From Beroe forskalii (Eukaryota; Ctenophora; Nuda; Beroida; Beroidae): a DNA stretch of 64,000 nucleotides. A program made the translations under genes and the position numbers. Each line of letters opens with the position of its first letter. The stretch's first letter is position 1. Of this stretch, positions 24,249 to 56,707 are shown piece after piece. The notes beneath the pieces were generated by a model. The model had not been told where the DNA came from. It saw nothing but the letters and a program-made list of their open reading frames with translations, and did not search any database. The stretch covers positions 186,001 through 250,000 of the forward strand of contig WFMF01000027.1 of the NCBI GenBank assembly GCA_011033025.1, in the 5' to 3' direction.

Positions 24249-24615
24249 GGGCATAATCCACGATTTTTGCAAGTACACCTGAATTCGCCGCGAATTCGCC
24301 GCGAATTCAAGTGAATTCAGGTGAATTCAGGTGAATTCGCGGCGGAGTTCGCCAAAAATTTTGGCGGACTCCGCCGGAGTCCGCCGGAGTTCGCCGCGGA
24401 CTCTGGCGAATTCACCTGAATTCACCTGAATTCGCCGCGAATACACGCGTATTCGGTGTACTAGTTCGCCAATTTTCCAGTTCACCCAGGCGAACAAGTT
24501 CGCCGCGAATTCTGCGGCGAACTGGTGTCCGCCGCGAATTCGCGGCGAACTCAGGTGAACTTGGGCGAACTCAGGTGAACTCAGTTCGCGGCGAATTCAC
24601 CTGAACTTTGAAGGA
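24249..24615. repeat. GAATTCGC-rich palindromic block, right copy
   Basis: This is an inverted copy of 18,470-18,815, starting with GGCATAATCCACGATTTTT, which is also where the left copy ends. It consists largely of GAATTCGCCGCGAATTC-type units with GGCGAAC variants. It abuts the broken end of piggyBac-like copy 3 on its left and continues into a MITE on its right. It may be part of a larger foldback element whose arms are the two blocks about 6 kb apart. Confidence 0.72.
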
Positions 24616-28019: not shown

Positions 28020-31000
28020 CAGTATTCAGCCAATATGTGGATAGGTTTATCCAAATTCAACTTTGACGGCTCATAACTCGACTATTATAAGTAACAGTAG
28101 CATGGCCTTTTCAGTATCCTCCGTTCTATCTTTCTTGAGTGCGTTGAAACATAAGCTAAAACTCTACCACATATAGTTAATTAATTACGCCTAATTTAAA
28201 TTAATTACCCGCAAAAAAGGGCTTAAAACTGAAGGTGGACGTTTTTATCCACCGCCACAAGTCTGATATGTGATATCCTCTAATTGCGCATTATAATTAC
28301 CGGCATAAACTTGCGGTATTCAGCAATTATTTCAATCACGTTCCGTAAGATCAAAGAGCGCGAAGCATTGAATCAGTGATATAAATAGATTAGCCCTACG
28401 GAGTTATGAGCAAACACAAACGCATACACGGAATTGAAAATTACATCGCACACAAGTTTTGTACAATTGAATTTCGTCACTTTCACAACTGAAGTCACAT
28501 GTTGATGACGTTAAACTGCCTTGTATATAATTAGTATCACGAGTGTCTGATCTCCCAAAGGTTTTGGATGTTTAGATAGGGATAAAGTTGCAACCTGCTT
28601 AATTGGAACACCACATTATTGCATATAATACCCATGTACAGTCAACGTCATTGATTTACTGCTTGGATTCACAATGGTGCCGTCATGCCAACCGCCTATC
28701 CTAAGCACCTACGTATAAAGTGTGTTCATCATGTTACACAAGGGAGGAGTTCGAAGATTCTCTAATGCTTTTCAACAGGAAATTGCTACATTGAGATAAA
28801 TAAACGCAATTTTTCACACTGTGGGGAGTGAGCTTATAGGTACCTACTGTACCTATATAAGTAGGAAAAAAGGATGCCAATTGAAAATGGGATAGGTATT
28901 ATATTTGGGTTAATGCCAATTCAATCATGAGCCAAAAACCAGTTCAAAGACCGAATTATTTGATGATTTTTGTGGAAATGAAACATCTGCGCGTCAAATT
29001 TATACTTTTATAGAACTATATCTCTATATTACCGTGATCTGGAAAAAGGAAGTACCTGTGTCCTGTACCTACCAACATTTTCAGCTCGTTGAGCTCTACA
29101 AAGCTACAAGATGGGCTAGGTCATTTGCGTGGGAAATGTCCCTGAAAAGTGAAAAAATTTTTAAAGGAAGTACCTATTACTACTAACTGCCATTTTTGAG
29201 AATATTTCAGGGATTTCGCGATTTTGTTATCTAATATCTGGAATCTAAGGAAGTATCTTACGTAGGTACCTAGATAATGGCATAATGCGGCAATGATTTG
29301 GTGCAGTTACTTCCTTTTAGTGCAGTTACTTCCTTTCCTGAACAATGAACATATTACCTACGGCCGGCGCTTATGGATAAAAAAGGAAGAAACTGACAAT
29401 TTTACAGGCCGTCTGAATTATGATCATTCATCGCTCAGTACCTAGGTACCTATATCATATGAATTTCCTAATGTTTATTCGAAAATATCCCATCGAAAAA
29501 TGTGAAACACAAAAGTGCGTTATTTTCAAAATGAATGCTAGATAACGACAGTAGGTTTCAAATTTTTATTTTTTTGATGAGATAGTTTCGGATATAATTT
29601 AGTCATCAGAGCATCCAAGGTAATGGATGAATTGCAATTGATTTGAAAATATTCTCGGCTAAACCTACACTTACTTCTTTTACAGTAATAATAATAGTAT
29701 TCTGATAATCTAATCAGTTACTTCCTTTTTATTCGCAACAGCCCACCATAATATTATGTTCAGGAAAGGAAGCAACTGCACCAAATCATTGCCGCTTTTT
29801 CATGGTTTATCGGGAAAAGGAAGTATCTACGTAAGATACTTCCTTCTTCCAGATAACAAAATCGCATAATGCCTGAAATGTTCTCACAAATTTGCAGTTA
29901 CTTCCTTATTTCAGATCACGGCTGTAGGACGTGTAGGTATACCTACAAAGGCGTTTTTCTTTTTCTCATACTTTAGTACTTTCTAATGAACGTCATTATG
30001 CGACTGTTATAGGCACGAGTGTACAACAGTAATGACAGTGGGTTATGCGACAGTACTGCAACAATACTACATATTTGCGGCAGTGTCATTATGATTTAAA
30101 TACAACAGTTCTAATAAATATTATATGACAGACGGAAGAACATCATGCGACAGTGCTACGACAATTACATTATTTAAAAGTGTCATTATGTGACAGTAAT
30201 ATGACATAAACCTACGGTAGAAAATCATGCGAAAGTACAACGACAGTTATATCATAAAAAAGTGTCCATAAATGCGACAGTTATTACAGTACATCATGCG
30301 ACAGTACTACGACAGTTACATATTTATGAGAATTGAGGCGGTGTCACTATACAACAGTTATATGAAAGACGACAGTACCTACATCATTCGACAGTACTGC
30401 AACAGTACTACATATTTGCGAGGTGGTGTCATTATGCAACAGTAATTACAATTTGACAGACGGCAGTACATCTTACGAGTCGAGTTCTACGACAGTTCTA
30501 TTATAGAGAAGTGTCATTATGCGACAGTTATGCGACAGTCATGACAGAAAATCATGCGACAGTTATGCGACAGTTACATATTTGCGAAGCTGTGTCATTA
30601 TAGGTACACTAGAAAAGTATAAAGCAGTTACCTATACCTAATAAAAGTATAAAGCAGTTATACCTAATAAATGTTATATGACAGACGACAGTACTGAGTA
30701 CATCATGCGACAGTACTACGACAGTTAAATATGAGACGGTGTCACTATACAATACTACAATATAATACAACAGTTATATGACAGATGACAGATAATCATG
30801 TGACAGTACTACGACAGTTACATATATTGATATTTATGAAGAGGTGTCATTATTCAGTATACATGCGACAGCATACATTATGCGACAGTACTACGACTCT
30901 ACAACAGTTACACTATAGAGGAGTGTCAATTGTCATTATGCAACAGTACTATGACATCGACAGTGGTATCAGTAGGTACCTATAACAGAATAAGACAAAG

Positions 31001-31523
31001 ACAGTTTTTTTGTTTTTTCTAATTTTTGAACGTCTATTAGCTTTCTACTCTGCTACAGAGCGTGGAGATTTTCTGCTTGAAACGGAAAATCTTGAATCTC
31101 GGTCAACATTGATCATGTTACACTCAAGTGTAGATTCAATTATATCGTAATAAAAGGTGTCTATCTTTATGATCATATCAACCCGGCAGCAGTGAAATTA
31201 GGCCCCGCAAAGAAACATTCCAGGAATTACTATACTTGCCATGTGGCCACAAAATATCTTCCGCGCAAGCCGTAACTCAATTAGTCCGTTATATAGCCCG
31301 TATATAGCGCTCCTGTGTGCAAATATTAATTACCGGCTTAATTAATTGAAATTAAAAGTTATTTAAAGTTCGATGACAAAACTTAGCTCAACTAAACCAT
31401 TGACCAACACTGAAATAGAGGATATTTTTTGTTTACTTCAAAACCACTCAGAAGCCGAGAAATGGAGGTGGATAAATCTGTCCACCTTCAGTCGTTTCTT
31501 ATCCGGGCCAAGGTGGAATACTG
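28020..31523. mobile_element. Non-autonomous piggyBac-like element, copy 2 (3,504 bp, inverted relative to copy 1)
   Basis: It matches copy 1 end to end in reverse orientation, with few differences. It is flanked by TTAA at 28,016-28,019 and 31,524-31,527. It interrupts the reading frame of the AlkB/SGNH retroelement remnant exactly: removing the element and one TTAA leaves an open frame across the junction for about 50 more codons. Near identity to copy 1 implies recent activity. The short plus-strand frame at 30,785-30,985 lies in its repeat array and is not a gene. Confidence 0.88.
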
Positions 31524-31850
31524 TTAATAAAGAACACTGTTCTCCTCAGGAAATCTGGAGGGGTAGACCGGAGGAAGAAGAGGGTGGTTGACGGGACGTC
31601 TTATCGGGATGTGGCAGCAAGCGGTATACCGGAGCATGATGGCTTCCAAGCGTCATGACTGCACTGAATAAAGAGGTATGTGTTCACTGTTCGGGGGGGC
31701 ATCAACATTGGCCAATCAATTAATGAATGTAACGTTTGTGACCGCGTAATACATACTAAATGCTTCAGCAAGAAACTGTTACTCTAGTAGCTAGCCCAAG
31801 ATGAGTATGCACATGCCCTTGTAGAAGGTTTCTCACCAGGATGTGCTAGT
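31524..31850 (+). pseudogene. Retroelement remnant, 3' continuation after the piggyBac-like insertion
   Basis: From the TTAA at 31,524 the same reading frame as before the insertion continues for about 45 codons (basic, RRKKRVV) to a stop near 31,652. Further on, CNVCDRVIHTKC (about 31,730-31,770) has the Cys-x2-Cys...His-x2-Cys layout of a PHD-like or similar zinc finger, as found in some LINE ORF1 proteins. It is preceded by in-frame stops, so the element is dead. Confidence 0.5.
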
Positions 31851-35575: not shown

Positions 35576-36214
35576 ATACCACCACCCCAGGAAAAACTGA
35601 TGATGTTAAATCCTAAAACGATTGAATATCAGGTAAAATGGTAGTACAGGAACATGGATGAATTTAGCCCCCAATAGCCCCCATTAGCCCCCATGGGGGC
35701 TACGTGAGGGGCTAATAAGGGGCTAGTGAGGGGCTAATTTTAAGCATTTAGCCCCCATGGGCGCTAAAATAGCGTGGGGGCTACGGTGGGGGCTATAGCG
35801 CCCACGGTGAGGGGCTATTTAGCCCCCAATAGCCCCCATTAGCCCCTCACTAGCCCCTCACTAGCCCCTCACGTAGCCCCCACGGGGGCTAAAAATGAAG
35901 GTTAGCCCCTTATTAGCCCCCATTAGCCCCCATAGAAAAATTAGCCCCCATTAGCCCCCACGGATTTTAAGTTTGTGAATTTCAATGGGGGCTATTGCGC
36001 CCATATGAGGGGCTATTGCTCCCATATGAGGGGCTATTGCACCCATATGAGGGGCTAATTTCGCTGGTTTCTGGCAAAATCAGCTAGCCCCCACCAGCAG
36101 TAAACTTTGTGCAAAAAATGCAAATTTTCAAATCATATTAAAAAACTCAGAAGTCTCAAGATCACTAGCCCCCACCATTATGGAATACATAACTAGGAAT
36201 TTACATCTTACTAG

Positions 36215-38057
36215 ACCCATATTAGCCCCTCACTAGCCCTTATTAGCCCCTCACTAGCCCCTTATTAGCCCCTTATTAGCCCCTCACTAGCCCCTTACTA
36301 GCCCCTTACTAGCCCCTCACTAGCCCCTTATTAGCCCCTTACTAGCCCCTCACTAGCCCCTTACTAGCCCCTCACTAGCCCCTTACTAGCCCCTCACTAG
36401 CCCCTTATTAGCCCCTTACTAGCCCCTCACTAGCCCCTTACTAGCCCCTCACTAGCCCCTTATTAGCCCCTCACTAGCCCCTCACTAGCCCCTTACTAGC
36501 CCCTCACTAGCCCCTTATTGGCCCCTCACTAGCCCCTCACTAGCCCCTTACTAGCCCCTTACTAGCCCCTCACTAGCCCCTTACTAGCCCCTCACTAGCC
36601 CCTTATTAGCCCCTTACTAGCCCCTTACTAGCCCTTCACTAGCCCCTTACTAGCCCCTTATTAGCCCCTTACTAGCCCCTCACTAGCCCCTCACTAGCCC
36701 CTTATTAGCCCCTCACTAGCCCCTTACTAGCCCCTCACTAGCCCCTTATTAGCCCCTCACTAGCCCCTCACTAGCCCCTTACTAGCCCCTCACTAGCCCC
36801 TCACTAGCCCCTTACTAGCCCCTCACTAGCCCCTTACTAGCCCCTCACTAGCCCCTTATTAGCCCCTTACTAGCCCCTCACTAGCCCCTCACTAGCCCTT
36901 ATTAGCCCCTCACTAGCCCCTTATTAGCCCCTCACTAGCCCCTCACTAGCCCCTTACTAGCCCCTCACTAGCCCCTCACTAGCCCCTCACTAGCCCCTTA
37001 CTAGCCCCTCACTAGCCCCTTACTAGCCCCTCACTAGCCCCTTACTAGCCCCTCACTAGCCCCTCACTAGCCCCTTACTAGCCCCTTACTAGCCCCTCAC
37101 TAGCCCCTCACTAGCCCCTCACTAGCCCCTCACTAGCCCCTTACTAGCCCCTCACTAGCCCCTCACTAGCACCTTACTAGCCCCTCACTAGCCCCTTATT
37201 AGCCCCTCACTAGCCCCTCACTAGCCCCTTACTAGCCCCTTACTAGCCCCTCACTAGCCCCTCACTAGCCCCTTACTAGCCCTCACTAGCCCCTTACTAG
37301 CCCCTCACTAGCCCCTTATTTGCCCCTCACTAGCCCCTTACTAGCCCCTTACTAGCCCCTCACTATCCCCTTACTAGCCCCTTATTAGCCCCTTACTAGC
37401 CCCTCACTAGCCCCTTACTAGCCTCTCACTAGCCCCTCACTAGCCCCTCACTAGCCCCTTATTAGCCCCTCACTAGCCCCTCACTAGCCCCTTACTAGCC
37501 CCTCACTAGCCCCTCACTAGCCCCTTACTAGCCCCTCACTAGCCCCTTATTAGCCCCTCACTAGCCCCTCACTAGCCCCTTACTAGCCCCTTACTAGCCC
37601 CTCACTAGCCCCTTACTAGCCCCTCACTAGCCCCTTACTAGCCCCTCACTAGCCCCTTATTGGCCCCTTATTGGCCCCTCACTGGCCCTTATTGGCCCTC
37701 ACTAGCCCTTATTGGCCCCTTATTGGCCCCTCACTGGCCCCTCACTGGCCCCTTACTGGCCCCTCACTAGCCCCTTACTGGCCCCTCACTGGCCCCTCAC
37801 TGGCCCCTTATTGGCCCTCACTGGCCCTTACTGGCCCCTTACTGGCCCTCACTAGCCCCTTACTGGCCCCTTACTGGCCCTCACTGGCCCTTACTGGCCC
37901 CTTACTGGCCCCTTACTGGCCCCTCACTGGCCCCTGGCCCCTTACTGGCCCTCACTGGCCCCTTCTGGCCCCCCCTTACTGGCCCTTACTAGCCCCTTAT
38001 TAGCCCCTCACTAGCCCCTTACTAGCCCCTCACTAGCCCCTCATTAGCCCCTTATTG
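36215..38057 (+). repeat. 11-bp minisatellite TAGCCCCTYAC, left arm of foldback 1
   Basis: About 1.84 kb of TAGCCCCTCAC, TAGCCCCTTAC and TAGCCCCTTAT units follow in almost unbroken 11-bp register. Towards the core (37,660-37,980) the units change to TGGCCCCTYAC. Each complementary unit carries GGGG every 11 bases. The 110-residue plus frame at 37,671-38,003 is a translation of this satellite, not a gene. Confidence 0.93.
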
Positions 38058-40615
38058 CTATCCAGATCATGCATTCGGATCATAGTGCAGCTACTACGTC
38101 ACGTGATATGTCACGTGACATTTCACGTGGCAGACCACAAGAAATGTCACGTGAACTCTAGTTCTCTTCAGTGCAGATTATATCCAGTGCTGATTATATC
38201 CAGTGCTGATTATATCCAGTGCCGAATTTATCCGATTCCAGTTGAAAATAAATCATAAATAAAATTTGTGCGCGGCTCCTTGAAGCAGAAATATACCATT
38301 ACTGATTCTGAAACGGCCCCATAGGTCCACCAAAAACAAAAGTGAATTCCTAAGCCCGCATAGGTGTGTGGATCTGGGATATAGTATATGGTTATACGTG
38401 TTTAGCAAGGGTCAGACACTGACAACGTCTGACAGACTCTTTGAGTTTAAGTCTGTGCGCCTGAGTGCGCGGAGGGGCCAGGCAAGGAACTAAGGAAGGT
38501 ATGTCTCCCATATAAACGGCTCTGAGTGACGTCACAGATCTAAACGTCAATTTTTCTGTATCCTAAACCTATCCATAGCCCTAACCAAAACCCTAACCTT
38601 AAGCCTAACCCTAACCCTAACAAATCCTGACCCTAATCGTGACCCTAACCCGGCCCTAGTCCTCAAAGCGCTAGGTGCGCTTAATTATATTTTTCTGAGT
38701 GACGTCATTGTCATAGATAATGAAGGCTCCCGTTTATATGGGAGACTCACCCTAAGGAAGTCACCCTTACTCACTGCTAGCATTGCTTGTTAACTTTCTA
38801 AACAATAACCATAGCCATAGCTCTAGCTCCCGTCCCTAGCGCGCAACACTCGAAAGTTCGGAGTGTTGTGTTACGAACTCCCCGCGGAAAAAGATGTGCG
38901 CGCGGCGGAGGGTAGAGTAACATCCTACTTGCCCTAACCAGGGCCCTGGTTTCGCGCACAGAGTGCGCGGCGCGGTTTCGCGACGCCCCTGGTTAGGGGA
39001 ACATCCTACAAACGCCCTCTTTATTTCTTAGTATTAGTAAAGGCTACGTCACTAATACTTAGTAAAGTAATAATTAGTAAAGATTACGTTACATGTTATA
39101 GTAACAAATACAACTACTGTAAACTTGATTACGGGGGGGGGGGGTAAAAAACGGCGCGGCGAAAAATTGATTACGTAGTATGTGAACGGTCCCCTAAGAG
39201 GGCGTGCAGCTTCCCCTAACAAGCGTTGCCAGACGTTGAGACCGCGTTCGTAGGATGTTACCCTACCCACGCGCGCGCGGCGCAACATTCCACATTTGGA
39301 CGTCACCTTTGCGCCTTGCTCTAACCAGATCCCTAGTTTTACGCGCGCGCGCCGCGCATTGTAGTTTCGGGACGAAGCGACGCACCTGGTTAGAGGAACT
39401 TTGCGCCTTCGGAGCAACGCCCGTCGACTTCACCTAACCAGGTGGTTACGCGCGCGCGCGCGCGGAATAGGGCGCTGGTTAGGGCAACCCGTCGACAGAC
39501 GTTCGTAGAATGTTTATACCTCGTAGGATGTTACCCTACCCCACGCGCGCGCGCTTTTGGACGGTGAGGTTTGCGCTCTCGCCCGGTTAGATAGCCCGGT
39601 TAGATAGCCGGTTGATAGCCATCCAATCAGAAGAAATAGACGGGCAACGTCCGTCGAGTTTATACCCTACCCACGCGCGCGCGGCGCAACGTTCCACATT
39701 TGGACGTCACCTTTGCGTTGTCTGCCATTGCATTCTGCCCCAGCTTAGCTTAACTTAGGAAGGGTTTGCACTATGCATTAAGTTGTCAGACGTTGTCTGA
39801 CCACCGCGCGTCCACCGAAAGCAAAGGGGTCAGACAACGTCTGACAAGCATTAAGGTTAAGGTTATAACTATAAGGTTCTGGTTATGAGTTAGAGCTCTG
39901 GTTCCGGTTTGGTTTACTGCAATAAGTTGACTTGCTAAACACGTAAATCCCTGTTTGCGTTGTAGGATGTTACCCTACCCTCCGCCGCGCGCACTTCTTT
40001 TTGCTCCGAACTTCCGAGTGTTGCGCGCTAGGGACGGGAGAAATCCGTCTTTGTTTGCGTTGCGCTGGCCAGGCAGGGGGACAGGCAACGCCTGGCAACG
40101 TTGCGCGGCGCGCTTCCCCTATGCGGGCTTAGGAATAAGTTGACCAGCAATGCAAATGCTAGCGGCGTGTAGGGTGACTTCCTTGCCTTCCTAAACCTGC
40201 ATAGGTGTGCGTACGCGCGCCGCGCTTCCCTACGGGACACACTGTGCTGAGGAAGCGCGCCACCCCTCCGCGCTCATGCGCACAGATACAAACTAGAGAC
40301 CGTCAGACGTTGTCTGACCCCTAGCCTTTCACGTTTGCCTCTGGCGGGCCGGCGGGGCGTGCATCTGACAATATATCTATAGGATTTAAGTATCAGTAAT
40401 AGTATTTTTCTGCTTCAAGGATCTAAGTGAAAGAGCCGCGCACGAATTTTACACAACAGTATTTATTTACGATTAAAATAGAGCATCGGATATAATCGGC
40501 ACTGGATATAATCTACACTGGAGGGAACTAAAGTTCACGTGATTATTCTTGTGGTCTGCCACGTGGAATGTCACGTGACATATCAGTATCACGTGACGTA
40601 GTTACATATGCTAAT
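38055..40615. other. Core of foldback 1: palindromic edges and CpG-rich centre
   Basis: Both edges carry a cluster of CACGTG motifs (38,098-38,152 and 40,535-40,600) followed by GATTATATCCAGTGC repeats, in inverted orientation. Inside are a MITE with telomere-like CCCTAA runs (38,503-38,750), GCGCGC-rich stretches (38,870-40,270) with recurrent GTAGGATGTTACCCTACC, and short palindromes of the type GTCAGACAACGTCTGAC (39,786-39,855, 40,299-40,320). The small frames at 39,052-39,417 and 40,028-40,240 show no recognisable domain. Confidence 0.7.
38503..38750. mobile_element. MITE with CCCATATAAAC ends and CCCTAA-like interior, copy 1
   Basis: TCTCCCATATAAACGG at the left and CCGTTTATATGGGAGA at the right are complementary ends about 245 bp apart. 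Next to the ends lie TGACGTCA motifs, and the centre holds degenerate CCCTAACCCTAA runs. Related copies lie at 49,602-49,843, 53,838-54,090 and 54,090-54,355. Confidence 0.75.
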
Positions 40616-41892
40616 AAGGGGCTAGTGAGGGGCTAGCCGCTAGTGAGGGGCTAATAGGGGGCTAATAAGGGGCTAGTAAGGGGCTAGTGAGGGGCTAGTG
40701 AGGGGCTAGTAAGGGGCTAGTGAGGGGCTAGTAAGGGGCCAGTGAGGGGCCAGGCGGGCCAGTAAGGGCTAGTGAGGGGCTAGTAAGGGGCTAGTGAGGG
40801 GCTAGTGAGGGCCAGTAAGGGGCTAGTGAGAGGGGCTAGTGAGGGGCCAGTGAGGCTAGTGAGGGGCCAGTAAGGGGCCAGTGAGGGGCTAGTAAGGGGC
40901 TAGTGAGGGGCTAGTAAGGGGCTAATAAGGGGCTAGTAAGGGCTAGTGAGGGCCAGTAAGGGCCAGTGAGGGCCAGTAAGGGGCCAATAAGGGGCTAGTG
41001 AGGGCTAGTAAGGGGCCAGTAAGGGGCTAGTAAGGGGCTAGTGAGGGGCTAATAAGGGGCTAGTGAGGGGCTAGTAAGGGGCCAGTGAGGGGCTTAGTAA
41101 GGGGCTAGTGAGGGGCCAGTAAGGGGCCAGTGAGGGGCCTAGTAAGGGCCAGTGAGGGGCCAGTGAGGGGCTAGGGGGGCAGTGAGGGGCCAGTGAGGGA
41201 CTGGTAAGGGGCCAGTGAGGGGCCAGTAAGGGGCCAGTGAGGGCCAGTAAGGGGCCAGTGAGGGGCCAGTAAGGGGCTAGTGAGGGGCTAGTGAGGGGCT
41301 AGTAAGGCCAGTAAGGGGCTAGTGAGGGGCTAGTGAGGGGCTAGGCCAGGGGCCAGAGGGGCCAAGGGGGGGCCAGTGAGGGCTAGTAAGGGGCCAGTGA
41401 GGGCCAGGGGCCAGGGGGCCAGTGAGGGGCTAGTAAGGGGCTAGTGAGGGGCTAGTGAGGGCCAGTGAGGGCCAGTAAGGGGCTAGTGAGGGGGCCAGTG
41501 AGGGGGCTAGTGAGGGGCAGTGAGGGGCCAGTGAGGGCCAGTAAGGGGCTAGTGAGGGGCCAGTGAGGGGCTAGTAAGGGCTAGTGAGGGGCTAATAAGG
41601 GGCTAGTGAGGGGCTAGTGAGGGGGCTGAGGGGGCCAAGGGGCTGAGTAAGGGCTAGTGAGGGGCCAGTAAGGGCCAGTGAGGGCTAGTGAGGGGGCTAG
41701 GGGCCAGTGAGGGGCTAGTAAGGGGCCAGTGAGGGGCCAGTGAGGCCAGCTAAGGGGCCAGGAGGGCTAGTGAGGGGCTGGTAGGGCCTGTAAGGGCAAG
41801 GGAGGCTAGTGAGGGCTAGTGAGGGGCTAATAAGGGGCTAGTGAGGGGCTAATAAGGGGCTAGTGAGGGGCTAATAAGGGTCTAGTAAGATG
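40610..41892 (-). repeat. 11-bp minisatellite, right arm of foldback 1 (inverted)
   Basis: This is the complement orientation of the left arm (GTGAGGGGCTA, GTAAGGGGCTA, GTGAGGGGCCA). It is shorter (about 1.28 kb against 1.84 kb) and much less regular: many units have lost one G or fused. The asymmetry suggests the two arms evolve, or were assembled, unequally. Confidence 0.9.
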
Positions 41893-42451
41893 CAAATTCC
41901 TAGTTATGTATTCCATACTGGTGGGGGCTAGTGGTCTTGAGACTTCTGAGTTTTTTAATATGATTTGAAAATTTGCATTTTTTGCTCAAAGTTTACTACT
42001 GGTGGGGGCTAGCTGATTTCGCCAGAAACCAGCGAAATTAGCCCCTCATATGGGCGCAATAGCCCCTCATATGGGAGCAATAGCCCCTCATATGGGCGCA
42101 ATAGCCCCCATTGAAATTCACAAACTTAAAATCCGTGGGGGCTATTGGGGGCTAATTTTTCTATGGGGGCTAATGGGGGCTAATGAGGGGCTAACCTTCA
42201 TTTTTAGCCCCCGTGGGGGCTACGTGAGGGGCTAGTGAGGGGCTAATGGGGGCTAAATAGCCCCTCACCGTGGGCGCTATAGCCCCCACCGTAGCCCCCA
42301 CGCTATTTTAGCGCCCATGGGGGCTAAATGCTTAAAATTAGCCCCTCACTAGCCCCTTATTAGCCCCTCACGTAGCCCCCATGGGGGCTAATGGGGGCTA
42401 TTGGGGGCTAAATTTATCCATGTTCCTGTACTACCATTTTACCGAATATCA

Positions 42452-43491: not shown

Positions 43492-45195
43492 TTAGTACCC
43501 GAAGCGGTCGGGTGCTACAATCGACGCCCTATTTCTTAAATTGTACCTAGGGGCCGGATGATCCTCTTCACTCTCCTCCTCACTCTCCTCACCCCTGCTG
43601 GTGTTCCTTGAGAATAGGACGGTACTCTCGTTAGCCGTAGTGAACTCGGCTGACTCTTGTACTGGTGACTCTGCCACTCCTATACTCTCAACCTCTCCCC
43701 TCTCCTCGGGAGTACTCTGCTCACTCACCGCCTGAGGTACTTGACACTCCGGTGTCGAATGTACTGGGTCACTGTGTGGTGCCCTTAAAGGTGCTCTAGC
43801 TCGACTGTGGGGTCTCGCCTTCTTTACTCTGACGTACTCCACTCCACTATCACTGCTGTCCTCACTCAGCACAGGGTGTGCTGCCTGAGCAGGGGGATTA
43901 GAAGTCTTGGTAACTGTGGGGTCACCTAATGCTGGATACTTCTTTTAATTGTACTTATTTCTTTGAAAATGTTTCATCTTAGAGATTTTGATCACTTTCT
44001 CAACCCCGGGTGCCAACTGGACCAAGTAGAGGTGGTCGTTGACCGCTTTGTTGACCATAAAAGGACCTCTCCATCTGATGGAGAATTTATGGCTGGGGCA
44101 GTTCACAAGTACATAACATAAATCCCCTGCTTTGAAGAACGGTCCGAGAATGTTCCTGTCGTGTTGATTCTTAGCGTAGAGGAAATCAACATCCGCATTC
44201 TCTCGAACCTTCCTGATGATGTTCTTCATCGTCTTGTACTGTTCGTAGGCAGCAGAGCGTCTTGTGAGAATCTCGGTCTTGACATCATTGTCCACCAATA
44301 GTGAGATTGGGGTGTTGAGCTCTCTTCCAAATACCAGCCTATTACTAGAGAAACCAGTGTGTCTGTTTCTCAAACAGTTGAGTGCGAAGACCGCATATCC
44401 CAAGTAGATGTCCCACTGGTTCTCCTTTCCCTCTGGTATACAGGCTCTCAAAGCTTGATTGACTCTCCTGTTCGACCGTTCCGCTCTCCCCGTGCTTCTG
44501 GAATGGTAAGCAGTGCCGTGTGTCACCTTACAGTCGAAATACTTGCAGACCTGTTCGAAGAAGTCTGCTGTAAATCCTGGATGATTGTCCACGATTATTT
44601 CCTTCGGCTGACCGAAAACGAGGTTCCATCTCCTCACTATCTGTTGAATGTTCTCTTTAGCCGTCTGTGTTCTGACAGGAGCAGCAACAAGGTGATTGCT
44701 CCACGCATCTGTTATGGTAAGAATGTACCTAAACCCTCTCGCAGTGCGTTTCTCACTGTCAGGAACAATGTGATCAATCATCACACAATCATTGAAGCTG
44801 TGGCATCTAATGTGTTGTAATGCCGCCTTCAGGTATCGCTGTGGAGGTTTGATCTCATGGCATTTCTCGCAGGCACTGATGAACTCCTTGAAATCCTCCT
44901 GCATCTTCGGCCAGTAGAAGTGTCTCCTGCATAGATCGACAGTTTGGTCGACCCCCGGGTGGCAGATTGTCAGCTTGTGATGTACCTCCATGATTGCCTC
45001 CTTCAACTTCTCTGGAATAACAATCAAGTCTCTGCCTTGCTCGATGTCCTTACTGACCCACCGTCTTTTCAGCAGTCCATTCTCCACTTTCAAAAGGTTG
45101 AACTGTTTCCAGAATGCTTGCTTTCCAAAAAGGTTTTTCCTCCCATTAGCAGCATGTAGAATCCTCCCAGTAAATTTTAATTGAATTTCTAACAA
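43492..45195 (-). pseudogene. Ty3/Gypsy-type pol fragment: integrase and C-terminal tail
   Basis: The frame from 45,195 to 43,945 encodes an integrase of about 416 residues. It has an HHCC zinc-binding domain (HHKLTICH followed by CEKCHEIK), a DDE core with MIDHIVPD, a second Asp in IIVDNHPGFTADFF, the Glu in STGRAERSNR, and a GPF-type module (IRWRGPFMV). After a TAA at 43,945-43,947 the same frame stays open to 43,492 and ends in the PRYNLRNR...PDRFG type tail common in these elements. Reverse transcriptase, RNase H and gag are missing, so the element is 5'-truncated. The single in-frame stop may be decay or the natural end. The plus-strand frame at 44,359-44,820 is its shadow. Confidence 0.88.
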
Positions 45196-45490
45196 GTGAA
45201 ACAGACGCCTGGAGGCGACAGCTCTCAGAATTAACAGGATTTTAATTAACTTATACCTCCCGATGGAATTTCAGTAGAACGGGTACAAAAAACTGCCTTT
45301 GAAAAAGTAACTGCCTGGAACAAATCTCCCACAATACTGAGGCTGGAACTGTAGAAAAAAATGCATGTGCTCCTTCATAATTTTTTCTGGCAAATTTTAA
45401 AGTTTGGACACTATTTATGGAACACCCTGTAGTTCAGTGCAAGTGTCTACTGAAACAAGTATAAAATTCAGTATCAGTTTGTGGGATTGC
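45196..45490. other. Junction between the truncated Gypsy element and the PEX6 intron
   Basis: No exon or domain is seen here. The retroelement homology ends somewhere in this stretch and PEX6 intron sequence begins. The polymerase part of pol is absent. The segment is plain, slightly AT-rich sequence. Confidence 0.4.
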
Positions 45491-45936: not shown

Positions 45937-47625
45937 ACATTCACGAGAACCTGCCTCGCTTCCTCCCTGACAAGAAACTGGATGTGATGTGCTCAGAGCA
46001 GCTGGATCGCTTGGAGCAGCAGCTGAGGAGCAGACTTCACAGCCCAGTGATCCTAGTGGCGGAGAAAGGTGAGTAACCATCTGATTGGTCCATTTGAAAT
46101 CACATACGAAGGATATCACGCGATACTGATAGGATGTCGAAAATCCGAGCAATCTGTCAATTTCTAATACGCCAAGTATAGACTTATAGACAAATTATGT
46201 GAAATGTTCATGAAAATACTCTGAAATAGTTCATATCTGAAATAACCGGAGTAAATTAGTGGTGTGAAATGTGTGATATTTTCAGGTAGTTGTAAGCTGG
46301 ACCTGGTTACTAACGTCTGCGGGAGGCTGGGCGTGGGTCTGTTCCATGTTCCAGGAGTGGATTACTGCGGGGAGGCAGCAGGGGCTCTGGAAACCAAGTT
46401 CTCCCTCCTCCAGACTCAGGTCCTGCAGTCCCAGCCCTGCCTTGTTTACCTGGACAACCTGGAGTTGCTGGGGAGAACCCGGGACGGGAGTGCTGAGGAC
46501 CCAAGAGTGGTACTGGCATTGGGACAGTTCCTTGGTGACGTCAGAACAATGTCTGATGTCTACCTGGTGGGAGGTTGTTGTGAGGCAGAGGAGGTAGCCA
46601 TGTCAGTCAGGCATCTGTTTGATATGTGCACTGTGATAGACAGGCCCAGTACTGATCACCTGCTTAAGTGTTTAGAGGATTTCTTTGTATTTGACTCTCC
46701 TGAAGCTGTGACATTGCTGAAGAAATCACTCAGCAAGGTCACGTTGAGGAAGACTTTAAAGCTCATTTCGGAGTTTGAGAAGCATTTAGGATTTGGTTTA
46801 AACGACAATAAGACCGTTAGCCTGATGGTATGTCAAGATGTGTTGAGCAAACTGAAGCTAGGGCAGACCCTGCAGCCCTGTGTACAGGAAACGCGGTGGG
46901 AAGACATCGGGGGAGTGGACCATGTCAGACGAGAGATAGAGGAAACCATAGAGATCCCTCTCAAACACAAGGCTCTGTTCGGACCCAACATCAGCAGGTC
47001 TGGTCTGCTGCTGTACGGGGAGCCAGGATGCGGCAAGACGATGGTGGCACGTGCCATAGCCACCCAATGCCACCTGGCTTTCCTGAGCGTGCAGGGTCCC
47101 GAGCTCCTGCACAGCTTCGTGGGGCAGAGCGAGGAGAACGTGAGGAAGGTGTTTGAGAAGGCCCGGGGCGCCGCCCCCGCCGTCCTCTTCTTCGATGAGA
47201 TAGACGCTATTGCGCCCTCCCGCTCCGGCGGCGTGATGGACAGAGTGCTGGCGCAGCTCCTCACCGAGATGGACGGCTCTGTGGGCGGGGATGTGTTCGT
47301 GATAGCCGCCACTAACCGCCCTGAACTACTGGACCCCGCCCTGCTGCGCCCTGGGCGTCTTGATAAACGGGTAGAGGTGGCGGTGGGCGGGGACGCCGAG
47401 TCCAGAGTGGGCGTGTTCAGGGCACTGTCCAGGCAGCTGAGACTGGCAGATAACGTGTGCTTCAAGACAGTTGCAGAGCTGTCAGGGCCGCTTAGTGGGG
47501 CCCAATGTTACGGAGTGCTGCTCGAGGCGTGCTATAAAGCAGTGCAGAGGTGCATAGATAGTGGTAGTAAGGAGGTAGTGGTCAACTTGACGGATTTAGT
47601 AACTTCTTTGCATGAACGCCGGTAG
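45924..47625 (+). CDS. PEX6: PEX6, peroxisomal AAA+ ATPase, C-terminal half (two exons)
   Basis: Exons are 45,924-46,068 and 46,286-47,625, joined at phase 1 (GAGAAAG|GTGAGT, TTTTCAG|GT), and encode about 495 residues. The first AAA domain (D1) is degenerate: VILVAEKGSCKLD stands where a Walker A should be, and CLVYLDNLELLG where Walker B should be, as known for PEX6 D1. The second (D2) is canonical: WEDIGGVDHVRREIEETIEI, Walker A GEPGCGKT, FLSVQGPELLHSFVGQSEEN, Walker B VLFFDEIDAIAPSR, then AATNRPELLDPALLRPGRLD. The GGVMDR signature and overall similarity fit PEX6 better than PEX1 or p97. With PEX1 it extracts ubiquitinated PEX5 from the peroxisomal membrane. The stop is TAG at 47,623. Human PEX6 is about 980 residues, so the N-terminal half should lie upstream; I did not find it left of the retroelement. 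The minus frame at 46,833-47,465 is a shadow. Confidence 0.93.
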
Positions 47626-49601: not shown

Positions 49602-49843
49602 GTCCCATATAACTCTGGGCTCTTCATTATCTGTGATAATGACGTCAGTCAGAAAAATATAGTTAAGCGCACCTAGCGCTTTAAGGACTTGGGTTAGGGT
49701 CACGATTAGGGTCAGGATTTGTTAGGGTCAGGGTTAGGATTAAGGTTAGGGTTTTGGTTAGGGTCATGGTTAGGTTTAGGATACAGAAAGATTGACCTTT
49801 AGGTCTGTGACGTCACTCAGCCGGAGTTATATGGGACACATAC
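49602..49843. mobile_element. MITE with GTGTCCCATATAACTC ends, copy 2, in a MED24 intron
   Basis: GTGTCCCATATAACTC starts it and GAGTTATATGGGACAC ends it. TGACGTCA lies near both ends, and the middle is GGGTTAGGGTCA-type sequence (inverted relative to copy 1). TA lies next to both ends, compatible with a TA target site. It has no coding capacity. Confidence 0.78.
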
Positions 49844-50040: not shown

Positions 50041-50802
50041 TGCGCACGTGGGGTGGACACCTTTGCTAGTAGTCTGTGCGCAGGTAGCGACGAGTCGCCA
50101 ATTAGAACAACGTTTGTCTTCGAAAAACGACAAAAGAGTCAAAATTTCTCTTAAAACTTGCATGGAATCAATAGAGCAAAGTCTCAGCTATCCAGAGATA
50201 TAAAGATCATCTGGGAACTCCAATCACAACCTTCGCAATGTCCCATGATGTACAAATGTTGAAAAACGTCGTTTTCCAATTGCGCGTGAACATTGATTGA
50301 TTGACGAGCTTGTGAGGCCCAATTCAAAAAAAGGAGATGCACTTTCGGTGTAGAATAGATTTATCTAGGCATTACAAAAAACCCCATGTCGATAACTCAA
50401 AAAATGTAGGAGCCTTAGGGGTTGCCAGTCAATTGTTGGAAATAAGCACACAGTTGTGCTATTTCGTGGGGTGGACAAGCGTGGGGTGGACAACGCGCGC
50501 GCGCGATTTAAAACGCCAGACTCTTGTTTGCCAAAATAGCGAGAGACCCTTGTCCACCCCACCGTCATTAACAGTGATACCATTTCAGATTTCCTGCAAC
50601 TGTGGCAACCGGCAGTGATTTGATAAGGACAAACAAACTTATTCTTGTTTCAACAGTAGTACTGGGACATAGACAATCAGTATAAAATCAGAGTAGATGC
50701 TTTTTGTCAATTTCATTTTAAAGTTATGTTATAAATGAGTACTATACTACTAACAAGTTATCATATAATATGTACATATACAGCACACGTCATCACTGGA
50801 TG
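50041..50802 (+). other. MED24 intron sequence, no exon credited
   Basis: The frames here (50,337-50,618 plus and 50,365-50,583 minus) show no domain. GTGGGGTGGACAA occurs several times (50,049, 50,468, 50,482 and, inverted, near 50,553), suggesting small repeats. The 8-bp target copy of foldback 2 starts at 50,795. Confidence 0.5.
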
Positions 50803-51384
50803 GGCGAAATGGTAGTTGAGGAACATGACTGATTTCAGCGTAAAATAGCCCCCATTAGCCCCCATAGGGGCTACGTGAGGGGCTAGTGAGGGGCTACGTG
50901 AGGGGCTAGTGAGGGGCTAATCTTGGTGTCTAGCCCCCATGGGCGCTAATATACGGTGGGGGCTATTTGCATTATGTAGCCCTTCACGGTGAGGGGCTAA
51001 AAAGTTCACTTAGCCCCTCACTAGCCCCTCACTAGCCCCTCACTAGCCCCTCACGTAGCCCCCATGGGCGCTAAATCTGCAATTTAGCCCCTCATAGCCC
51101 CTCACAAGACGTTTTAACGAATTTAGCCCCCATTAGCCCCCACGAATTATGTATCTACGCATTTCCGTGAGGGGCTATAGCACCCATATGAGGGGCTAAA
51201 GCCTTCATATGAGGGGCTAATGGGGGCTAAATTTGACTGAATCAGTTAGCCCCCACGAGATTACATTTTGTCGTCAAAATGTCAAAATTATGACATCCAT
51301 TAAACAATTTGAATGCTTTTCTCCACTAGCCCCTCACTTAGTCCTTCGAAACAATTTCCTTAATATTGTTTCCATTCTTAATCA

Positions 51385-52892
51385 CTAGCCCCTCACTAGC
51401 CCCTTACTAGCCCCTTACTAGCCCCTCACTAGCCCCTCACTAGCCCCTCACTAGCCCCTCACTAGCCCCTTACTAGCCCCTCACTAGCCCCTTACTAGCC
51501 CCTCACTAGCCCCCTTACTAGCCCCTCACTAGCCCCTCACTAGCCCCCTCACTAGCCCCCTTACTAGCCCCCTCACTAGCCCCCTTACTAGCCCCTCACT
51601 AGCCCCTTACTAGCCCCTCACTAGCCCCTTACTAGCCCCTCACTAGCCCCTCACTAGCCCCTCACTAGCCCCTTACTAGCCCCTCACTAGCCCCTCACTA
51701 GCCCCTTACTAGCCCCTCACTAGCCCCTTACTAGCCCCTCACTAGCCCCTCACTAGCCCCTTACTAGCCCCTCACTAGCCCCTTACTAGCCCCTCACTAG
51801 CCCCTCACTAGCCCCTCACTAGCCCCTTACTAGCCCCTCACTAGCCCCCTCACTAGCCCCTCACTAGCCCCCTTACTAGCCCCCTCACTGGCCCCCTTAC
51901 CAGCCCCCCTCACTAGCCCCTCACTAGCCCCTTACTAGCCCCTCACTAGCCCCTCACTAGCCCCTCACTAGCCCCTCACTAGCCCCTTACTAGCCCCTCA
52001 CTAGCCCCTCACTAGCCCCTCACTAGCCCCTTACTAGCCCCTCACTAGCCCCTCACTAGCCCCTTACTAGCCCCTTACTAGCCCCTCACTAGCCCCTCAC
52101 TAGCCCCTTACTAGCCCCTCACTAGCCCCTTACTAGCCCCTCACTAGCCCCTCACTAGCCCCTCACTAGCCCCTCACTAGCCCCTCACTAGCCCCTCACT
52201 AGCCCCTTACTAGCCCCTCACTAGCCCCTTACTAGCCCCTTACTAGCCCCTCACTAGCCCCTTACTAGCCCCTCACTAGCCCCTCACTAGCCCCTCACTA
52301 GCCCCTCACTAGCCCCTCACTAGCCCCTTACTACCTTCTCACTAGCCCCTTACTAGCCCCTCACTAGCCCCTTACTAGCCCCTCACCAGCCCCTCTTACA
52401 GCCCCTCACCAGCCCCCCTTACTAGCCCTCACTAGCCCCTCACTAGCCCCTTACTAGCCCCTCACTAGCCCCTTACTAGCCCCTCACTAGCCCCTTACTA
52501 GCCCCTCACTAGCCCCTTACTAGCCCCCTCACTAGCCCCTCACTAGCCCCTTACTAGCCCCTTACTAGCCCCTTACTAGCCCCCTCACTAGCCCCTTACT
52601 AGCCCTCACTAGCCCCTCACTAGCCCCTCACTAGCCCCTTACTAGCCCCTCACTAGCCCCTTACTAGCCCCTCACTAGCCCCTCACTAGCCCCTTACTAG
52701 CCCCTCACTAGCCCCTTACTAGCCCCTCACTAGCCCCTTACTAGCCCCTCACTCAGCCCTCACTGGCCCCTTACTAGCCCCTCACAAGCCCCTTGGTTCA
52801 GCCCCTCACTAGCCCCTTACTAGCCCCTCACTAGCCCTTTACTTGCCCCTCACTAGCCCCTCACCAGCCCCTTACTAGCCCCTCATTAGCCA
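51385..52892 (+). repeat. 11-bp minisatellite TAGCCCCTYAC, left arm of foldback 2
   Basis: About 1.5 kb of CTAGCCCCTCA / CTAGCCCCTTA units follow each other, with occasional units of five C. It is very regular. Unlike element 1, it has almost no TTAT units and only rare TGGCCCC variants. Confidence 0.93.
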
Positions 52893-54821
52893 TTCATATT
52901 GGATGCATGACCATGGTGTAGTTGCTACGTCACGTGCTAATTATGACATCACATGACATAACCCGTGGCACCTCACGTGATATACCTCGAGACATATCAC
53001 GTGACCTCTCTAGTTCTATCCAGTGCTGATTATATCCAGTGCCGATTTCAATTTTAAATCAGTGCCTTGTTGATCGTAACTAAATCATTTATAAGTATAA
53101 TTGCTGATGCAAGCTGTTGAGATTCAGCTTGCCTTGCGCGGCGCCCGCACACACACCTATGCGGGCTTAGGAAAGATTCAGCGCGCAGCATGGTGGCGTG
53201 GAAATCTCACGAATAATAGTTATAAAAGACTAAGACAATTGTCGGCTGTTGACTCGTAGGATGTTACCCTACCCTCGCGCGCGGCGCAACGTTCCACCTT
53301 TGGACGTCACTTTGCGCTCTCGAGTCTCGCCATCCAGTCAGAAGAAATAGACGAGCAACGTCCGTCGAGCTGCCATCCAGTCAGAAGAAATAGACGGGCA
53401 ATGTCCGTCGAGCTGTTGACACACCCTCGTGAGAATCAGTGCCACGTGCACCTCGCTGAAACTTATCTCGGCTGGCGTCGCAGTGGGTTATTCATCGTAC
53501 GACTAAGAGCAACTGCAAGCAGAAGTCATTTAGTTTTACTTAATTAGTGCACGTGCGCAACACTCGGACATTTTGCGGGTCCCGATCCCATTCACTGTTC
53601 CTGCAGAGAGAAGTGCGCGCGGTGGAGGGTAGACCCTTACCAGGACCCTGGTTTATCGCACAGAATGCGATTGCGAGGCAAGCGCGACACCACTGGTTAG
53701 TGGAAGATAAAACCCGCGCCGGGTCGGTCTTCCAAATAAACGGGAGCCTTCATTATCTATGACAATGACCTCTGCTTGCTCTTAGTCGTACGATTAATAA
53801 CCCACTGACGCCAGCCGAGGGTATTTCTCCCATATAAACGGGTATGTGACCCATATAACTCTGGCTGAGTGACGTCACAGATCAAAAGGTCAATTTTTCT
53901 GTATCCTAAACCTAAATATGACCCTAACCAAAACCCTAACCTTAATCCTGGCCCTAAACCTAACAAATCCTGACCCTAATCCTGATCCTAACCCTAACCT
54001 TTAAAGCGCTAGATGCGCTTAACTATAATTTTCTGACTGACGTCATTATCATAGATAATGAAGAGCCCAGAGTTATATGGGACACTAGCCTATAAACGGC
54101 TCTGAGTGACGTCACAGATCTAAACGTCAATTTTTCTGTATCCTAAACCTAAATATCAAAATATGTTATAATTATATGGCCCTAACCAAAACCCTGACCT
54201 TAATCCTTACCCTAACCCTAACAAATCCTGACCCTAACCCTGACCCTAACCTTAACCCTTAAAGCGCTAGGTGCACTTAAATGTATTTTTCTGAGTGAGG
54301 TCATTATCATAGATATAATGAAGCTAAGACCCTAGAGTTATATGGGACACTAGCCCAGCCGAGATGAGCATCAGCGCCGCGCACGTGCAACACCGCAACG
54401 TGGCGCTGATTCTCAGTTCTCACGAGGGTGTGTCAACAGCCGACAATTGTCTTAGTCTTTTATAACTATTATTGGTGAGAATTTCAAGCCACCGTGCTGC
54501 GTGCTGAATCTTTCCTAACCCCGCATAGGTGTGTGTACAGGCGCCGCGCAACGCAAACAGGGATATACGTGTTTAGCAAGCTGAATCTCAACAGCTTGCG
54601 TCAGCAATTATACTTATAAATGATTTAGTTACGATCAACAAGGCACTGATTTAAAAATTGAAATCGGCACTGGATATAATCAGCACTGGATAGAACTAGA
54701 GAGGTCACGTGATATGTCTCGAGGTATATCACGTGATGTGCCACGGGTTATGTCATTTGATGTCATAATTAGCACGTGACGTAGCAACTACACCATGGTC
54801 ATGCATCCAATATGAATGGCT
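52893..54821. other. Core of foldback 2, largely palindromic
   Basis: The outer edges (52,893-53,240 and 54,434-54,821) are inverted copies, including TATATCCAGTGC repeats, GACAATTGTC and CCTATGCGGGCTTAGGAAAG-like sequence. A further inner pair (53,418-53,515 and about 53,780-53,825 or 54,356-54,432) is also inverted. The loop holds two MITEs. CGCGCGCGGCGCAACGTTCC (53,274 on) recurs in the core of foldback 1. No convincing gene is present. Confidence 0.7.
53838..54355. mobile_element. Two adjacent MITEs of the CCCATATAA family in the core of foldback 2
   Basis: Two copies lie head to tail, about 53,838-54,090 and 54,090-54,355. Each has GTGACGTCACAGATC near the left, CCCTAA-type runs in the middle, AAAGCGCTAG(A/G)TGC, and GAGTTATATGGGACAC at the right. 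They occupy the loop of the giant hairpin, so the foldback core has served as an insertion target, or it carries these copies as cargo. Confidence 0.7.
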
Positions 54822-55932
54822 AATGAGGGCCAGTAAGGGGCTAGTGGGGCCAGTGAGGGGCTAGTAAGGGGCTAGTGAGGGGCTAGTGAGGGGCTAGTGA
54901 GGGGCTAGTGAGGGGCTAGTGAGGGCTAGTGAGGGGCTAGTAAGGGCCAGGCAGAGGGGCTAGTGAGGGCCAGTAAGGGCCAGTAAGGGGCTAGTGAGGG
55001 GCTAGTAAGGGCCAGTAAGGGCCAGTGAGGCCAGTAAGGGGCCAGTGGGGCCAGTAAGGGCCAGTAAGGGCCAGTAAGGCCAGTGAGGGGCCAGTAAGGG
55101 CCAGTGAGGGGCCAGTGAGGGCCAGTAAGGGCTAGTAAGGGGCTAGTGAGGGGCTAGTGAGGGGCTAGTGAGGGCCAGTGAGGGGCTAGTGAGGGGCCAG
55201 TAAGGGGCCAGTGAGGGGCTAGTGAGGGCTAGTGAGGGCCAGTAAGGGGCCAGTAAGGGGCTAGTGAGGGCTAGTGAGGCCAGGAGGGGCCAGTAAGGGC
55301 TAGTGAGGGGCCAGTAAGGGGCCAGTGAGGGCCAGTAAGGCGCCAGTGAGGGGCTAGTGAGGGGCCAGTAAGGGGCCAGTGAGGGGCTAGTAAGGCCAGT
55401 GAGGCTAGTAAGGGCTAGTAAGGGGCTAGTGAGGGGCTAGTGAGGGCTAGTAAGAGGCTAGTGAGGGCTAGTGAGGCCAGTAAGGGCCAGTGAGGGGCTA
55501 GTGATGGGCTAGTAAGGGGCTAGTAAGGGGCTAGTGAGGGGCTAGTAATAGGCTAGTGAGGAGCTAGTGAGGGGCTAGTGAGGGGCTAGTAAGGGGCCAG
55601 TGAGGGGCTAGTAAGGCTAGTGAGGGGCCAGTAAGGGCCAGTGAGGGGCCAGTAAGGGCCAGTAAGGGCTAGTAAGGGGCTAGTGAGGGGCTAGTAAGGG
55701 GCTAGTGAGGGCTAGTGAGGGGCTAGTAAGGGCCAGTGAGGGGCCAGTGAGGGCCAGTGAGGGGCCAATGAGGGGGCTAGTGAGGCCAGCTAGTGAGGGC
55801 CAGTGAGGGGCCAGTAGGGCCAGTAAGGCCAGTGAGGGCCAGTAAGGGGCTAGTGAGGGCCAGTAAGGGGCCAGTGAGGGGCTAGTAAGGGGCCAGTGAG
55901 GGGCTAGTAAGGGCTAGTGAGGGGCTAGTGAT
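54822..55932 (-). repeat. 11-bp minisatellite, right arm of foldback 2 (inverted)
   Basis: Complement-oriented units (GTGAGGGGCTA, GTAAGGGCCA) run for about 1.1 kb. As in element 1 the right arm is shorter and ragged, with many GGG instead of GGGG and GGCCAG variants. It ends at GTGATTAAGAATGGAAACAA, complementary to the left subterminal segment near 51,375. Confidence 0.9.
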
Positions 55933-56707
55933 TAAGAATGGAAACAATATTAAGGAAATTGTTTCGAAGGACTAAGTGAGGGGCTAGTGAAGAAAAGCTC
56001 AAAAGCATTCAAATTGTTTAATGGATGTCATAATTTTGACATTTTGACGACAAAATGTAATCTCGTGGGGGCTAACTGATTCAGTCAAATTTAGCCCCCA
56101 TTAGCCCCTCATATGAAGGCTTTTAGCCCCTCATATAGAGTTATAGCCCCTCACGGAAATGCGTAGATGCATAATTCGTGGGGGCTAATGGGGCCACCGT
56201 TAAAACGTCTTGTGAGGGGCTATGAGGGGCTAAATTGCAGATTTAGTTCCCATGGGGGGTTACGTGAGGGGCTAGTGAAGGGCCAGTGAGGGGGGGCTAG
56301 TGAGGGGCTAAGTGAACTTTTTAGCCCCCTCACCGTGAAGGGCTACATAATGCAAATAGCCCCCACCGTATATTAGCGCCCATGGGGGCTAGACACCAAG
56401 ATTAGCCCCTCACTAGCCCCTCACTAGCCCCTCACTAGCCCCTCACGTAGCCCCTCACGTAGCCCCCATGGGGGCTATTTTACGCTGAAATCAGTCATGT
56501 TCCTCAACTACCATTTCGCCACTGGATGGTGATGCAGTGAACTTATAATGTAATGTACAGTGTACACCCTTTAGTACATTAAACAGTGTGGCGGTACTTC
56601 AGTACAACATTCATGTTTTTCACAAAACTTAATAGCAGGATGTAAATCTTGTGATTGTACACAACTGATTATACGATGTAATTAGGAAAAGTTACATTTC
56701 CAGGCAG

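Follow-up and report, generated by a model that had tools for sequence, protein, structure and literature searches.

A foldback transposon family with inverted 11-bp satellite arms in Beroe forskalii and its probable mobilisation by a Merlin-type transposase

The window analysed here is a stretch of 64,000 nucleotides from the genome of the ctenophore Beroe forskalii (NCBI GenBank assembly GCA_011033025.1, contig WFMF01000027.1, positions 186,001 to 250,000 of the forward strand). At window positions 35632-42443 lies an element of 6.8 kb, hereafter element 1, which is a complete foldback transposon and a member of a multi-copy family. Its parts and flanks are, from left to right:

35624..35631 (no strand), left target duplication GAATATCA
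35632..35656 (+), left 25-bp terminal inverted repeat GGTAAAATGGTAGTACAGGAACATG
35657..36222 (+), left outer domain of TAGCCCC and GGGGCTA units in mixed orientation
36223..38052 (+), left 11-bp array of TAGCCCCTCAC, 167.7 copies
38053..40616 (no strand), non-satellite middle with inverted modules, 2.56 kb
40617..41886 (-), right 11-bp array, 118.9 copies, opposed to the left array
41887..42418 (-), right outer domain
42419..42443 (-), right 25-bp terminal inverted repeat GGTAAAATGGTAGTACAGGAACATG
42444..42451 (no strand), right target duplication GAATATCA

The original prediction, made from the letters of the window, had described exact terminal inverted repeats and a perfect 8-bp target duplication, and both were confirmed: the 25-bp ends, left on the plus and right on the minus strand, agree with 0 mismatches (chance expectation 0.00), and GAATATCA stands on both sides. 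The same prediction saw a 6.8-kb near-palindrome consisting almost entirely of inverted 11-bp arrays. The arrays, however, make up only about 3.1 of the 6.8 kb (46%), the ends and the outer mixed-orientation domains account for about 1.15 kb, and 38% is non-satellite middle. The palindrome holds for the outer regions, where positions 35626-35836 and 42239-42449 are 98% complementary, and positions 35844-36239 and 41857-42252 97%; the outer domains, of 0.53-0.57 kb each, are built of TAGCCCC/GGGGCTA units that alternate in orientation. The two arrays are of unequal length, and where they match they show 80-95% complementarity and no common register; close palindromy in element 1 is therefore confined to roughly the outer 0.6 kb on either side. 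G-quadruplex motifs (24 and 41 non-overlapping, one figure per strand) are present, with many on the G-rich strand. A single open reading frame (ORF) of at least 120 amino acids is found in the middle (39052-39429), and it has no Pfam match.

The family across the genome

The assembly that contains the window comprises 216 Mb in 1134 contigs (designations such as L018 and C725 are our own handles for loci and contigs). The original prediction had suggested a genome-wide search for the ends and their target duplications, and this search bore out a family. The end pattern GGNNAAATGGTAGTNNNGGAA gave 95 matches and its reversed control 0; 60 of the matches form 30 inward-facing pairs which, as read along the contigs, span 134 bp to 33.8 kb, and 35 are unpaired. 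Ten ends of the rarer type were fetched, of which eight have satellite next to them and two (L040, L045) do not, so that a few of the 95 matches may not belong to the family. An exact 29-base trimer of the satellite occurs at 494 places (control, 0), and all of the 100 places listed fall, by eye, either between the two ends of a family pair or, on C232 and C237, directly inside an unpaired end of the family. In all 16 full-pattern copies the first 12 bases are equal at both ends, except for one base in L018. The commonest spacing of family units is 11 nt, with 1396 of the 2338 same-orientation spacings of up to 60 nt in 15 copies, and array length varies widely among copies and between the arms of one copy. 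Homogenisation of the arms within elements was not seen in a first subfamily (0.828 within elements and 0.832 between; 12 elements) but was seen in a second (0.903 within and 0.800 between; 4 elements).

Incomplete and very small copies also occur. At three of the unpaired ends (L023, L025 and L028) one arm is followed by other sequence, and contig C725 ends 269 bp into a family copy. Two unpaired ends, L024 and L028 (the end of contig C725 and C529:14727, respectively), have a common flank, TCATTTTC, and are possibly one broken or rearranged copy; C725 and C529 were not counted as a single split element, the C529 side having only about 0.5 kb of satellite followed by about 9 kb of other sequence. 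A miniature copy of 134 bp (L036, C413:79349-79482) has both ends and a few units, and is flanked by CTTCACACT and CTTCGCACT.

A second copy, element 2, absent from the original prediction, lies in the window and follows the plan of element 1:

50795..50802 (no strand), left target duplication ACTGGATG
50803..56520 (+), element 2, of the family of element 1, with ends GGCGAAATGGTAGTTGAGGAACATG; paralogous empty sites found
51382..52891 (+), left 11-bp array, 135.8 copies
54818..55931 (-), right 11-bp array, 105.8 copies
56521..56528 (no strand), right target duplication ACTGGATG

Target duplications were assessed in 19 copies for which both flanks were read, a set that excludes L042 (which represents the L043 insertion again and whose second flank is cut short), a truncated copy inside C1091 and the unpaired ends. 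The duplication is exact in 17 copies (15 of 8 bp and two, L012 and C267, of 9 bp) and has one mismatch in the other two (L019, L036); 8 bp dominates and no duplication of 10 bp was seen. In Mutator-like foldbacks the duplication measures 8-10 bp, most often 9. All but one of the 38 ends of these copies begin with GG, one end of L043 beginning with GA; the 95 genome-wide matches are no test of this feature, as GGNNAAATGGTAGTNNNGGAA itself demands GG. For 14 copies, 75 bp of each flank (less for two) were joined with one copy of the duplication and searched against the genome. Matches that run through the join were found for at least seven, at identities of 91-99%: element 2 (91-94%), L011 (95-97%), L012 (97%), L014 (95-99%), L015 (99%), L016 (93-94%) and L018 (96%). 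This number is a lower bound, since 40 of 1617 candidates were scored, and among the matches listed there was no empty site for element 1, L009, L010, L013, L017, C420 or C325b. The empty sites are repeat copies without the insertion, as clean insertion predicts. The mobile foldback of the original prediction is thus borne out by the duplications and empty sites of the family, none of the latter being seen for element 1 itself.

Merlin and Mutator-like loci and the mobilisation of the family

In the same genome, 35 matches to Merlin (PF12762) and 46 to the domain of Mutator-like elements (MULEs) were found. Eleven of the Merlin loci and four MULE loci were fetched, selected because their open frames are long; the last five Merlin loci were picked once arrays were known among the first six. 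Arrays of period 11 with at least four copies are present at eight of the 11 Merlin loci; two more (L047, L048) have arrays of a 21-bp palindromic unit, and L049 has none. Such period-11 arrays were found at none of the four MULE loci and in four of 32 background tiles of 2.1 kb each, three of these four carrying copies of one repeat of the window. The difference between Merlin loci and background tiles (Fisher p = 0.0004) is optimistic, because the loci are not independent and four of them have one common unit. The 11-bp units are AGTCTCGGAGA (L050), CACCTGGGGCA (L051), CCGTTAACCGA (L052), CCCGGGACCTT (L058) and GGCGGACCTAC (L059-L062). The clearest case is L057+L051, where a stop-free frame of 321 amino acids is flanked by inverted 11-bp G-rich arrays of 29.5 and 24.5 copies; these arrays are rich in GGGG, and the layout is much like element 1 in small, without a clear duplication. 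At L060 the arms measure 159 bp and are 96% alike. Both ends could be seen in four Merlin copies. Two of these, L060 and L061, carry duplications of 8 bp (GAAATACT and GACGATTT, respectively), and the ends of these two are identical across their first 16 bases, as likewise are family ends. The Merlin protein of L051 gave 59 matches at E up to 1e-40, most of them without a species name; those that are named come from Mnemiopsis leidyi (three) and Bolinopsis microptera (one). The named matches point to a probable ctenophore host, with the reservation that mobile genes can pass between species.

The MULE loci L053, L054 and L056 have duplications of 9, 8 and 8 bp, respectively, and their two ends differ at 3-4 of the first seven bases and at none of the next nine; these ends are themselves inferred, having been located by a search for duplications and inverted repeats. 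Repeats of 16 bp (L053, L055) and 15 bp (L056) lie beside MULE genes, a second superfamily with repetitive ends, of another period, and L054 has a 15-bp array inside its ORF.

Within the family, tblastn searches with the longest frames of the 11 Merlin and four MULE loci (E up to 1e-3) gave no match in 15 copies, in the 33.8-kb copy on C1091 or in the window; the transposase searches of the genome covered MULE and Merlin. This agrees with the original prediction of an element that encodes no enzyme, and from the lack of a detected transposase in the 16 copies we infer mobilisation in trans. A full-length relative with a transposase and these exact ends, which that prediction had suggested looking for, was not found. 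Several candidates for such a partner were rejected. On C1091 (205712-239499; L022+L029+L030+L021) two family ends lie 33.8 kb apart with a common duplication, CAAAAACC; the interior of about 22 kb, in which no Merlin or MULE match was found, holds RPA-like ORFs (Pfam), pieces of DnaJ-like ORFs (by reading) and a family copy truncated at both ends, and this arrangement was therefore not taken for a giant autonomous partner. The RPA stretch is single-copy, save one 152-bp match at 88%, and a search for RPA homologues gave no hit at 1e-30. The arrangement may have arisen by composite transposition that took up host genes, by an insertion at a later time or through an error of assembly. The long copies C420, C325b and C267 were likewise set aside as coding relatives, with no Merlin or MULE match, C267 having a retroelement-like RNase H ORF. 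A conserved MULE fragment, often a frame of 77 amino acids, is present at C336:512289-512408 and elsewhere (65 matches, most above 90% identical) and looks like a family of MULE deletion derivatives. A family-type end near it was not accepted as proof of a MULE partner, since the fragment recurs as a dispersed repeat and the locus yielded no second end. The short-end pattern GGNNAAATGGTAG occurs at 315 places (control, 106); among the matches listed (contigs up to C269), none besides the known ends lies less than 6 kb from a MULE, by reading.

The original prediction named no mobiliser. We propose that the family most likely owes its mobility to a transposase of Merlin type (IS1016/IS1595-related), which would act in trans by recognising the family ends that begin with GG. 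The GG ends, the duplications of 8-9 bp and the 11-bp arrays beside eight of the 11 Merlin loci together make this, to our minds, the probable source of mobility. Merlin elements start with 5'-GG, have terminal inverted repeats of 24-462 bp and produce 8- or 9-bp duplications, and tandem repeats within Merlin copies were noted in 2021 (PMC8101967); the 2021 survey lists Merlin matches in three ctenophores. The family shares the terminal GG, the duplication length and the tandem repeats; it differs from Merlin in that no transposase was found in it and in its inverted arms, which measure kilobases as against 24-462 bp (PMC8101967). No DDE_Tnp_IS1595 transposase, whether carried by the element itself or by a partner with the same ends, was found in the 16 copies searched, in the window or near family ends; a non-autonomous member could nevertheless qualify, and we therefore call the family Merlin-like rather than a proven member.

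Several observations weigh against a Merlin-type transposase. By eye, no Merlin gene came closer to a family end than about 20 kb, the nearest lying at about 21 kb on C514. When three ends of the family were compared with four Merlin ends of the genome by anchored alignment (12 comparisons), p ranged from 0.0165 to 0.395, uncorrected, and the likeness was not significant against shuffles; the AGGAAC common to the ends of element 2 and L060, which had looked promising, was not significant either. Of the four Merlin copies in which both ends are visible, L051 and L062 have no clear duplication, and the GGACCT common to the units of L058 (CCCGGGACCTT) and L059-L062 (GGCGGACCTAC) means that the five Merlin units may not all be independent. 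On the MULE side, L056 begins with GG and has an 8-bp duplication, and at C336:514315, some 2 kb away from a MULE fragment, there is an end of family type that lacks satellite.

The family could instead be a Mutator-like foldback, as Tm1 of root-knot nematodes is and Tetris of Drosophila virilis probably is, moved by a MULE transposase of the genome, and this we consider unlikely. The 46 MULE domain matches, the repetitive terminal regions and 8-9-bp duplications of the genome's MULEs, the GG start of L056 and the fragment near the C336 end speak for it, as does the placing of most known foldbacks in Mutator (PMC4079207); but the gene-side repeats of these MULEs measure 15-16 bp and not 11, the mismatches in their first seven bases contrast with the matching family ends, and neither the 15 copies nor the C1091 copy nor the window gave a MULE protein match. 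A cut-and-paste foldback of a superfamily other than the two searched for, whether hAT, P (Galileo-like) or an undescribed one, is quite improbable. Duplications of 8 bp fit hAT and P too, but neither typically has ends that start with GG, and an occasional 9-bp duplication fits hAT poorly. That P elements can turn foldback-like is evident from Galileo (PMC3573991).

A different question is whether the arrays have any role in transposition, or are passive products of slippage or passenger elements acting through G-quadruplexes or chromatin. That they have no such role we hold to be somewhat doubtful, if a serious possibility: the arrays differ widely in length from copy to copy and from arm to arm, G-quadruplex motifs are many on the G-rich strand, and the 134-bp copy exists with few units, yet slippage alone does not predict an 11-bp period common to five Merlin unit sequences (two of them with GGACCT), with a sixth of about double that length, and several Merlin units, such as GGCGGACCTAC and AGTCTCGGAGA, cannot, by inspection, form such G-quadruplexes. 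That the two arms are an inversion artefact of the assembly is hardly credible. The unpaired ends (35 of 95), the contig that stops inside a copy (C725) and the one-armed loci L023, L025 and L028 are what such an artefact might leave, but 30 end pairs lie at separate sites, the duplications of the 19 read copies differ by site, and empty sites exist for seven of 14 copies.

Origin of the arms and comparison with known foldbacks

If a Merlin-type transposase moves the family, its arms would derive from the short 11-bp arrays in the terminal repeats of Merlin, and they probably represent an outgrowth of the arrays that stand next to most of the Merlin genes fetched. With one unit per helical turn (about 10.5 bp), each unit would be a putative site for binding of the transposase or for helping synapsis, so that longer arms may recruit more transposase. 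After loss of the gene, slippage or unequal crossing-over between units could have stretched the arms to kilobases, and the stretched copies would each have spread through cut-and-paste. The binding role that we propose for the units in Merlin arms would be filament-like, by analogy with the IS607 family, in which cooperative binding of transposase dimers to several subterminal repeats yields a filament that captures the other end, the motifs not always being 10-11 bp apart (PMC6188088). The tandem repeats in the long ends of Galileo have been found to hold additional putative binding sites for the transposase, and the same passage calls such sites untested for Foldback and Phantom elements (PMC3573991, PMC3688188). 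More tentatively, and at rather less than an even chance, Merlin terminal repeats may obey a grammar of 11 bp, or one helical turn, in which the sequence of the unit varies by subfamily and its spacing is kept because the transposase assembles as a filament on one face of the helix; the family would then be a runaway form, a filament track turned mobile satellite with hundreds of units per element.

The sea urchin TU elements and the Drosophila FB elements are foldbacks with short tandem repeats in their arms, of differing unit lengths, and TU makes 8-bp duplications; we know of no link of either to Merlin. Tm1, of the Mutator/Foldback type, resembles the family in its terminal repeats, which are composite and include short units in tandem, its unequal arms, its 8-10-bp duplications and its classes without a transposase, and differs from it in having units of 13-15 bp instead of 11, asymmetric 7-bp end motifs instead of matching GG ends, and some copies that encode a Mutator-type transposase (PMC3169594). 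The mismatches in the first seven bases of L053, L054 and L056 recall the asymmetric Tm1 ends (PMC3169594). Tetris, like the family, is non-coding, has an outer domain, a tandem domain and a variable middle, makes 8-10-bp duplications and amplifies a satellite within the element, and its mobiliser was not found; in contrast to the family, it has units of about 220 bp, terminal inverted repeats of up to 1,735 bp, and repeats that form arrays in 39 contigs without a flanking domain, where the 100 of 494 trimer places listed here include no such array (PMC4079207). Galileo, of the P superfamily, has similarly long, internally repetitive terminal repeats (PMC3573991, PMC3688188), but a P-type transposase and, in one subfamily, units of about 210 bp (PMC3573991).

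Foldbacks with tandem-repeat arms are therefore already known from Tm1, Tetris and Galileo, and the original prediction, which knew of no comparable arms, was right in part: short tandem-repeat arms have precedents, and kilobase arrays of one 11-mer go further. What is new is the proposed link to Merlin and the helical-turn period; in the open-access literature searched, two papers touch on both foldbacks and Merlin, and we found no report of a ctenophore foldback or of a Merlin element with an 11-bp tandem repeat. These observations bear on the open question of what tandem repeats in foldback arms are for. The genome has several open Merlin frames, most of them next to 11-bp arrays whose sequences differ, and a gene-less family in which this period extends over kilobases, which separates the sequence of the unit from its spacing; the idea of helical phase can be tested with one purified protein. 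Merlin would also be the third superfamily to yield foldbacks, after Mutator and P, and there would be a clear route from a transposon end to a dispersed satellite.

Other features of the window

Degenerate CCCTAA-type repeats at 38562-38651, 49691-49780, 53921-53999 and 54180-54259 lie in a common module of about 250 bp, within elements 1 and 2 and at one site outside both. Another repeated element of the window, at 5547-9039, 22626-24250 and 28016-31527, has stretches that are 97-98% identical, some of them inverted, and carries an 11-bp array of TAACTGTCGCA at 6495, 23119 and 30517. Between the two foldbacks, at 43948-45270 (-), is an ORF for a gypsy-like retroelement integrase (H2C2 zinc binding and rve). 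A 2OG-Fe(II) oxygenase (AlkB-like) frame is present at 27167-27658 (+), and a frame of 456 amino acids at 46255-47622 (+), with two AAA ATPase stretches, may be a peroxin-type AAA protein.

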